Source: Coprinus comatus (Eukaryota > Basidiomycota > Agaricomycetes > Agaricales > Agaricaceae). Taken from it: a stretch of 64,000 nt of DNA. How positions within the stretch are numbered: the first letter of the stretch is position 1; each line of letters begins with the position of its first letter. The notes below the pieces were generated by a model. That model saw only the letters and a program-made list of their open reading frames with translations. It was not told where the DNA came from and ran no database searches. Shown in pieces: positions 1-2,418 of the stretch. The DNA lies in the NCBI GenBank assembly GCA_034638255.1, contig JAWPGT010000029.1, positions 1 through 64,000 of the forward strand, in the 5' to 3' direction. A program made the position numbers and the translations under genes.

Positions 1-49
1 CCCTAACCCCCCTAACCCCCCTAACCCCCTAACCCCCTAACCCCCTAAG
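1..49. repeat. terminal telomeric repeat array (CCCTAA with 3 to 6 C)
   Basis: The sequence opens with tandem units CCCTAA, then two with six C and three with five C, each ending TAA. Read from the other strand this is TTAGG followed by a variable G run. This marks the physical chromosome end, with the G-rich strand running outward to the left. The number of C residues changes from unit to unit, unlike a uniform TTAGGG array. The array stops at base 48-49 and retroelement sequence follows with no spacer. Confidence 0.95.
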
Positions 50-1384
50 ATGCTACAACCTATCGTTAAAAGTGCTTCTACCGTGATAACGGGCACTAAA
101 GATATGGTTATGAAGCTCAAACAGATTTCTCTTCCGTCTGCTAAGTTCGATAGCAGTAAAGGACTGAAACGGTTATATTTCATCTCTGGCGACGTCGTTG
201 CCTTCTACCCAAATATAAATATTGATAAAGCACATGAGTACGCTTATAACGCTTTAGAGGAATATTTGGCGTATGATGAATCTATAGATGTAACCGATGA
301 AGCACAAGTTCGCAAAGCAGCTGATACTTTGCTACTTTTTAGGGAGTGCTTGACAGTCACGGATAGTAATCTTCTTCTCAAATTCGACGGGAAATATTAT
401 AGACAGAATCGTGGTCTGGCAATGGGTATGGCATCCTCACCAGATCTTGCCAACATTTATGGTTGGCAACAAGAACGAGACAGTCCAATATTATCACACC
501 CCGATGTACCTTATTACGGAAGGTATATAGATGATTGTTTTGGCGTATGCTACGCAAGTAGTGCACAAGAAGTCTTAGAACTTTTCCAAAATAATATTAA
601 CTTCTACGGATGCGAGATCAAGTGGTCAGTATCGGACAGTCATATGACGTTTCTTGACTTGACGCTGTTCATTGAGAACGGCAGGGTTGAATGGAAGCCC
701 TACAGGAAACCACTGAACCACTTTGAACGAATCCCATGGATCAGCTCTCACCCGGAATATGTCAAACGCGGCACATTCTTAAGTGAACTGAGTCGGATAG
801 CCACACTTAGCTCTCGTATTGGTGATTACGCAGAGGCATGTAGAGAAGTCGCGGATATTTACATTGCGCGTGGTTATCCCCCTAGATTGATATCAACATG
901 GATAAGACAAAACTACCAAGTACGTTGGGATGCGCGGTATAATGAGAATACTGCTCCTTTGGCACCAGTACTTGTCCTCAAGTCTGAATACAATCTATCC
1001 TGGGATTATTTTAACGTTCAAACATTAGCAGAACGGATGAAGGCCGGATGGCGAGTAGCAATGCGCACAATCGCCTTCAGTGATAAGGAGCTATTAGCAG
1101 AGCTTCCTCCTGAAATCGCTGCAACCAAACCTGACTTATCTCTTCTTCGTGGTCCCCTTAGAAATAAGGCCCACCCAGAAGCTCATTCGTCTTCGATGAG
1201 TGATGCCCGTGTATACGGGAGTCTGTTACGTCTGGATAAGCTTGGTCTTCTTGATAGGCGAGTACTTATTAGTAAACGTCGTACAACACAACTAATCGAT
1301 CTTGTTTCGATTTGGAGAAAATCCGTTCTCGAGCGTCGTGACCGCCAAGTGCAATCAACACTTGACGACTGGGTTGTTCGTTGA
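50..1384 (+). CDS. Penelope-like reverse transcriptase, N-terminally truncated
   Basis: The 444-residue frame contains RT motifs in order: motif A (DVVAFYPNI, about residues 48-56), motif B (GLAMGMASSPDLANIYG, about 122-138), the catalytic YIDD box (159-162), motif D (MTFLDLTL, about 199-206) and the Penelope-type region around 218-235 with RKPLNHFERIPWISSHP. The FYPNI form of motif A and the conserved SSHP segment are typical of Penelope-like elements and not of LTR or LINE elements. The ATG at 50 is an internal methionine that happens to follow the telomeric array; the frame meets a stop inside the repeats just upstream, so fingers motifs 1-2 and any N-terminal domain are missing. The C-terminal 200 residues show no GIY-YIG endonuclease, matching the endonuclease-deficient class. 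The frame is open to a TGA with no lesions, which suggests recent insertion. Confidence 0.88.
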   Translation: MLQPIVKSASTVITGTKDMVMKLKQISLPSAKFDSSKGLKRLYFISGDVVAFYPNINIDKAHEYAYNALEEYLAYDESIDVTDEAQVRKAADTLLLFRECLTVTDSNLLLKFDGKYYRQNRGLAMGMASSPDLANIYGWQQERDSPILSHPDVPYYGRYIDDCFGVCYASSAQEVLELFQNNINFYGCEIKWSVSDSHMTFLDLTLFIENGRVEWKPYRKPLNHFERIPWISSHPEYVKRGTFLSELSRIATLSSRIGDYAEACREVADIYIARGYPPRLISTWIRQNYQVRWDARYNENTAPLAPVLVLKSEYNLSWDYFNVQTLAERMKAGWRVAMRTIAFSDKELLAELPPEIAATKPDLSLLRGPLRNKAHPEAHSSSMSDARVYGSLLRLDKLGLLDRRVLISKRRTTQLIDLVSIWRKSVLERRDRQVQSTLDDWVVR

Positions 1385-2281
1385 GGCCCTGAGCCTTTGA
1401 TGAAACTCTTAGTACGGCGGGATGCTTTCCATCCACAGGTTATGTCTATGCCCCCGGATTAAACACTTGCCGGGGAATAAAATAAGTGTAATACCATATT
1501 TGAGCATGGGTAGCAATATGATATGGTAGGCATGGACTTTATAGCTGGCGTCGTGTACGTCAGTCCGGTAATCAGCCCATTGATTACTGGGAGACCTGGG
1601 AATTCATCTCAATGGAACAGACGGACGTCTTAGGTGACGGACCACCTCTTCGGAACTTAACTGCTGAATTTAGTAAGCAGCCTATCTATAGTCGTGAAAA
1701 ATAGTCAGCTAATGAATCCTTGAAAGTGCATGCCCATTTATGATCTCTTACTGAGGGCATAATCCAGCTAGGAACTTTTGCGGTACGTACTTACAATACA
1801 CATGTGTCTCAGGCATACTAACCGTATGTCTCCCCCTAACCCCGAACCCAAACCGGTAACTGTGTGGTGCATTTACCGGCGGGCCGGGGGAGGTCACCTG
1901 ACAGGTCCCATCACGTGACTAACTTTCTATTGTAAGTACCCGCCTTTTCATGTCAAGTTGAAAAGATAACTAATTTGAGTTTGTATACAGTATAACAGCT
2001 TATGTCATGTAATGTTTCCCACGGTTGACCGTGGTTTTGGCTTAGGTAATATATTGTATATAATAAAAGTATTAGTCATCCTTTTATTATTTATTTTGTA
2101 GTCAGATTCCATCTCCGACCAATATTTCAAACTCCCCTTAAAATTAGTTATAAATAGTACTGAGTATTAATTAGGTGTAGATTATGTAAGTAGTTCACAC
2201 GTTCCTAGATTTGGTTGTCTCAGACAACGTCCTTTGGTATAATAAATCAATACCATTGGCTGGATTAGGTAAGATGATTGA
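1385..2281 (+). other. non-coding 3' region of the retroelement, hairpin-rich
   Basis: No plausible reading frame exists here. Short perfect hairpins are visible, for example GTAATCA...TGATTAC at about 1569-1588 and a CCCCGG...CCGGGG stem at about 1452-1477. A single telomere-like unit (CCCCCTAACCCC) lies at about 1832-1843. The region joins the RT stop to the ribozyme and presumably carries signals for RNA processing or target-primed reverse transcription; that role is inferred. Confidence 0.5.
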
Positions 2282-2337
2282 TAACCAAAGGTGCCTGATG
2301 AGCCTTATAAAGGCGAAACAGGGAGTTGCAGAGGTTT
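2282..2337 (+). ncRNA. type I hammerhead ribozyme of the Penelope-like element
   Basis: The conserved core is intact: CTGATGA at 2295-2301, stem II GCCTT/AAGGC at 2302-2306 and 2310-2314, and GAAA at 2315-2318. A minimal stem III follows (C2319 with G2325, loop AGGGA), then GTT at 2325-2327, which places cleavage after 2327. Stem I forms from TGC (2292-2294) with GCA (2328-2330) and, after an internal loop, AACC with GGTT. A very short stem III is characteristic of hammerheads carried in the terminal repeats of Penelope-like elements, which may act as dimers. Orientation matches the RT. The fold was drawn by eye; energy and activity are untested. Confidence 0.82.
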
Positions 2338-2396
2338 CCTCTGCACTTGTTGCACCCTCGGTTCGCTTCGCTCACCTCGGTTGCAAGTTAGGTTTT

Positions 2397-2418
2397 CCTA
2401 CCCCTAACCCCCTAACCC
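2397..2418. repeat. interstitial telomeric repeat at the retroelement 3' junction
   Basis: The tract reads CCTA, CCCCTAA, CCCCCTAA, CCC in the same orientation as the terminal array. It is taken as the remnant of the telomere onto which the retroelement was reverse transcribed. Confidence 0.85.

Follow-up and report, generated by a model that had tools for sequence, protein, structure and literature searches.

The first 64 kb of contig JAWPGT010000029.1 of Coprinus comatus (hereafter C29), from its base 1 and referred to below as the window, carries at positions 45 to 2398 what is, by its sequence, a 5′-truncated, endonuclease (EN)-deficient Penelope-like element (PLE) between two telomeric stretches. 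We consider it very likely that this copy was primed by its reverse transcriptase (RT) at a broken or eroded chromosome end and that the truncated end was then capped by telomerase. The genome (35.7 Mb, 134 contigs) provides the evidence: the position and orientation of the copies, their variable 5′ truncation, fixed 3′ end, and telomeric caps, and subtelomeres that read through the attachment points. For primer use, the order of events, and the trimming of the element RNA, we infer the following. The telomerase-like RT would be primed by the 3′ end that the G-rich strand exposes at a broken or eroded chromosome end. This enzyme would copy the element RNA from its 3′ end (GGUUUUCC) towards its 5′ end, and the element DNA would thus be added with its 5′ end outermost. 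Telomerase would next extend the truncated end with repeats. A hammerhead ribozyme would trim the element RNA.

Copies of the element at chromosome ends

A DNA search of the genome revealed 13 places corresponding to at least 12 copies (C29, C20, C66, C47a, C47b, C74, C37, C117, C49, C28, C55, and C73), all counts being lower bounds. The two places on C20 count as one, a tandem of two copies having been rejected in favor of one copy with a 59-bp internal deletion. As expected from the original prediction of an EN-less element attached to telomeres, none of the 12 copies is more than 14 kb away from a contig end, and the 5′ end faces the nearer contig end in 11. The same 3′ end is common to 11 of the 12 copies, and C47 carries a stack of two copies pointing the same way. 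A terminal telomeric array directly caps six copies (C29, C20, C66, C47a, C74, and C37) at six different truncation points. The number of copies and the six differently truncated, telomere-capped ends indicate that the association is real and beyond chance. Chromosome-end location, an outermost 5′ end, and a telomeric cap, which are expected of an EN-deficient PLE, were thus all observed. No intact complete gene was seen in any copy: those of C29 and C20 begin within the RT, and the longest copy (C49; ~3.8 kb, its 5′ end joined to another repeat) has a single break in its frame.

Telomere-bearing contig ends number at least 19 (17 among the matches listed, plus those of C103 and C37). The telomere search listed the best 100 of 112 places; of the other 12, 11 fall on C95 and C103, and one is unlocated. 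The element is the outermost non-telomeric sequence at 6 of these at least 19 ends.

In the window, the terminal array (CCCCCTAA)n, read on the C-rich strand, occupies positions 1 to 48 (plus strand). Identity to the longest paralogue, the C49 copy, begins at position 45, and the last 4 nt of the array (CTAA, 45 to 48) are therefore common to array and element. The claim that the element directly adjoins the array was correct in substance, although its start had been set at position 50 rather than 45. At the six telomere caps, array and element overlap by 4, 3, 3, 5, 2, and 0 nt, the last value (C37) being scored 0 because of a nearby substitution. The mean overlap of 2.8 nt, versus 1.2 nt over all element positions in the most favorable register (P = 0.004), is expected if telomerase healed ends offering a few matching bases. 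Exons of the telomerase reverse transcriptase (TERT) were located on C10. They comprise an RNA-binding domain and an open frame in which GIPQGSILSSLL is interpreted as a TERT RT motif, so that ordinary telomere synthesis is to be expected. The type of array, C4-9 TAA, is identical at all 19 ends compared. The earlier suggestion that the host has a retroelement layer in telomere maintenance found no support in this genome, which contains a telomerase gene, and the element should not be taken as a sign that the host depends on retroelements for this function.

Three-prime joints and the state of the captured ends

The last element-specific base in the window is 2398, within GTTAGGTTTTCC. A second telomeric tract was found to meet the 3′ end of the element, as predicted: 20 nt of C-strand repeats at positions 2399 to 2418 (plus strand). 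It is followed by a 14-nt filler (2419 to 2432) and by subtelomeric sequence in common with contigs C66 and C103 (2433 to 2501), neither being assigned to a strand. At the 2433 boundary, C66 and C103 run on upstream without the element or telomeric repeats. At 9 of 11 three-prime junctions (C29, C20, C117, C49, C66, C28, C47a, C55, and C73), a related subtelomere on another contig runs through the attachment point and on into different, non-telomeric DNA. Since a related unbroken stretch survives elsewhere for these nine junctions, one can deduce what each end looked like before capture: most had apparently been shortened to a point within the subtelomere. The C117 and C73 junctions sit among repeated arrays and carry less weight. 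The nearest relative of the C73 flank, on C31, itself has a telomere-like inverted junction beyond the joint.

Between the last bases of the element proper and the chromosome lie about 4 to 20 telomeric nt, with C-strand letters at all 11 junctions; at the C55 joint, these letters can be the chromosome's own ACCC. Variants of the 3′ tail (TAACC, TACC, and AACC) were considered as marks of subfamilies and rejected, because the C29 and C49 copies differ in their tails even though they are 99.8% identical over 2.36 kb. The tail therefore seems to be made at the joint, where the short telomeric tract would be either a brief addition by telomerase or a copy of an RNA tail. The sequence directly after the constant end of the element differs among the 11 junctions. 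The six copies with two non-telomeric flanks all lack direct repeats over 6 nt, shorter repeats remaining possible. The read-through at the joints, together with their approximately 4 to 20 telomeric nt, suggests that capture took place at broken or eroded ends and not at intact telomeres. The original prediction had the copy reverse transcribed onto the telomere; attachment to the overhang of an intact telomere does not agree with nine junctions apparently cut back inside the subtelomere or with the shortness of the telomeric tracts.

Insertion at intact telomere tips through the G-rich overhang, the telomere beneath being later lost or shortened by recombination, would be in keeping with the C-strand telomeric letters at each of the 11 junctions, of which C29 keeps 20 nt. 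Terminons have been described as attaching to G-rich overhangs (PMC12477314 and PMC6431247; sources identified here by PMC number are represented by excerpts). We nonetheless regard this alternative as rather unlikely, since the tracts at the joints are shorter than the terminal arrays, which attain 110 nt even when truncated by the assembly, and since the subtelomere's own ACCC suffices for the C55 joint. Shared blocks form mosaic subtelomeres in this genome, and subtelomeric recombination with break-induced copying from one end to another, rather than fresh reverse transcription, could in principle have been the main way in which the copies spread. That explanation appears improbable because block copying would tend to carry flanks along, whereas the flanks following the constant end differ at 11 junctions and the 5′ ends vary. 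Assembly chimeras, which the location of the array at the contig edge might suggest, can safely be dismissed in view of six ends with six different truncation points.

Several observations weigh against capture of broken or eroded ends followed by telomerase capping. Repeats gather at contig ends in any draft assembly. The C73 copy is reversed and lies at a contig end without a listed telomere, the C37 copy lacks the 3′ end, and the loci compared, a subset of the genome, included no read-through relative for C47b or C74. The cap with five overlapping letters (C47a) is located where the element itself is telomere-like. The RT fold is closest to telomerase among the fold matches, as expected for a telomerase-like RT, but the lead over group II intron RTs is narrow (fifth row, 16.6; next, 16.4). 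The 5′ truncation could reflect either reverse transcription that stopped short, as the original prediction had it, or later erosion of the inserted end, and some of the copies could have been relocated when subtelomeres recombined.

Reverse transcriptase and hammerhead motif

The 3′ part of the PLE RT gene (45 to 1384, plus strand) is uninterrupted between the truncation point and the stop codon. The open frame, 41 to 1384, encodes the later part of the RT and contains the motifs DVVAFYPNI (FYPNI) and GRYIDD (YIDD). Domain searches for GIY-YIG were negative, in agreement with the initial identification of a Penelope-type RT devoid of this endonuclease. The domain was absent from the window frame and from both frame pieces of the longest copy, which may lack a 5′ part, and from the precomputed domains of the best 120 of 239 relatives, many of which are partial. 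Neither the GIY-YIG domain nor, for repeats over 6 nt in the six copies with two non-telomeric flanks, the target-site duplication of canonical EN-containing Penelope elements was thus observed. The single GIY-YIG scored in the genome, a frame on C100 (L044, G000:C100:31288-31530), was considered as an endonuclease partner and rejected because it is of the NUMOD1 homing type; the C100 contig, with this GIY-YIG plus NUMOD1 frame, may be mitochondrial.

Among the matches listed, the RT is most similar, as far as named sequences go, to two proteins of Leucoagaricus (53% identity), which fits ordinary inheritance. A TypA-like gene of the window is 81%, 79%, and 74% identical to proteins of Leucocoprinus, Macrolepiota, and Cyathus, respectively (67 to 78% of the query), in keeping with an Agaricales host. 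In a midpoint-rooted tree of 78 related proteins, built from relatives and not from named EN-containing and EN-lacking PLE references, the RT belongs to an 11-row clade (support of 100) with the two Leucoagaricus proteins and eight unnamed proteins. The fold matches also included viral polymerases and further RTs, which were taken to reflect the shared palm fold, and a Phmmer search against solved structures returned just two weak, unrelated matches.

Downstream of the gene, a 3′ untranslated region common to the paralogues (1385 to 2282) precedes a putative hammerhead ribozyme motif (2283 to 2363) and the conserved 3′ end of the element (2364 to 2398), which terminates with GTTAGGTTTTCC, all on the plus strand. 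The motif was assessed by a descriptor scan with shuffles, a constrained fold, free folds, and an Rfam search. Its core consists of CTGATGA (2295 to 2301) and GAAA (2315 to 2318), with helix II at 2302 to 2314, helix III at 2319 to 2349, helix I formed by 2283 to 2294 and 2352 to 2363, and predicted cleavage between 2351 and 2352. The descriptor (core CTGANGA plus GAAA, with helices I, II, and III) was composed after the motif had been spotted by eye. It matched exactly once on both strands of the window, at 2295 to 2351, where the three helices measure 5, 5, and 4 bp. Shuffling the window 200 times produced a single loose match and no match with helices of this length. An Rfam search over 201 bases gave 14.8 bits with the type III hammerhead model, far below the cutoff of 48.5, and the identification of the hammerhead is therefore based mainly on the descriptor scan. 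Rfam over 11 loci returned no match with E values up to 1, and a scan of viral contigs detected no relative.

The constrained fold (−29.5 kcal/mol) contains helix I parts of 5 and 4 bp, a helix II of 5 bp, and helix III parts of 5 and 8 bp. Free folding did not produce the hammerhead core: according to ViennaRNA, which leaves the tertiary contacts of the core unscored, the free minimum (−31.7) is 2.2 kcal/mol lower, with a CCUG-CAGG pairing that closes the core. Free folds of 81 and 85 nt were more stable than shuffles (z = −3.2 and −3.8), the difference being less clear for 128 and 134 nt (z = −2.0 and −2.5). Positions 2373 to 2384 resemble the 3′ strand of helix I and, in the longer context, compete for helix I; one may speculate that the RNA switches between two folds.

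Of the 12 copies, 8 (C29, C49, C20, C66, C47a, C28, C117, and C74) have an unaltered core and 2 (C47b and C55) an altered one; the core is cut off in the C73 copy, and the C37 copy has none. The sequence past the predicted cut is kept in 11 of the 12 copies, indicating that the template RNA was uncut there, and the putative ribozyme may rather trim RNA from upstream copies. In one lizard PLE, insertion in vitro did not need hammerhead cleavage (PMC11167929). It is possible, although doubtful, that the element is a break-seeking healer acting mainly on telomere-less subtelomeric ends, which would thereby offer telomerase a fresh substrate, with a complete single-unit hammerhead that would process the element RNA and, unlike the minimal PLE hammerheads, need no dimer.

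Subtelomeric surroundings and known systems

A second subtelomeric repeat (L014:3900-5258, on C117) occurs at 23 places, with a fixed boundary ending in GTAGGTAGAAT and variable other ends. On C117, C66, C55, and C49, it adjoins PLE ends and is oriented like the PLE; it may be another end-attached element. A third repeat has its boundary at GTTAGGT (L009:1189-1822, C20:2510-3191, C31:864-1240, and C73:52-303). Near position 1242, C31 has two telomere-like stretches head to head (TTAGGGGG/CCCCTAA), resembling a scar of chromosome-end fusion. On C49, a helicase frame (DEAD plus Helicase_C; L031:77-2056, minus strand) overlaps the edge of the terminal telomere and may be a subtelomeric RecQ helicase of the Agaricus type (PMC7473861). 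Related subtelomeric frames are found at L037:1713-2945, L034:204-1103, and L014:3632-4180, all on the minus strand, with GGQHRRDAV in those of L037 and L034.

Judging from its sequence, the element matches the known fungal EN-deficient PLEs, which we take to be those called Coprina, as a diverged, well-preserved, and recent member in another mushroom. EN-deficient PLEs of fungi (Coprina) were reportedly described by Gladyshev and Arkhipova in 2007. The present element resembles Coprina by its PLE-type RT without GIY-YIG, its chromosome-end location, and the telomeric repeats on its truncated 5′ end, and differs by its new host and its diverged sequence (53% to the Leucoagaricus relatives). 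According to PMC3846280, EN-less PLEs at telomeres, including fungal ones, have been published since 2007; they prime at exposed chromosome ends (deprotected telomeres or double-strand breaks), a likeness that would extend to the present element, and their truncated 5′ end then gains telomeric repeats. Break capture is thus already proposed in print, and the present joints, from which the sites where an endonuclease-less element became attached to the chromosome can be read, add evidence for it. PLEs are also linked with telomeres in Agaricus bisporus (PMC7473861). These are likewise mushroom PLEs tied to chromosome ends, and they differ from the present case by the joint-level analysis, which was not met in the excerpt of that source.

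The Athena elements and Terminons of bdelloid rotifers share with the present element the 5′ truncation by telomeric repeats and the head-to-tail arrays (PMC6431247). Terminon 3′ ends carry a hammerhead and reverse-complement telomeric letters (PMC6431247), and C-strand telomeric letters likewise follow the 3′-terminal hammerhead, here a motif only. Giant units and accessory genes like those of the rotifer elements were not seen among the copies, of which the longest (~3.8 kb) may lack a 5′ part. The hammerheads of PLEs and Terminons are described as minimal, without helix III or tertiary loop contacts (PMC7761336). Compared with that description of the type I form, the predicted motif is fuller, with a long helix III (5-bp and 8-bp parts). 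Among the titles and opening lines of abstracts surveyed, none was noticed that reported a hammerhead for a PLE of fungi, and we claim no priority. A full helix III would make PLE ribozyme action testable on one short RNA. Finally, unlike telomerase reverse transcriptase, the product of a separate host gene, the present element is mobile and would copy its own long RNA.
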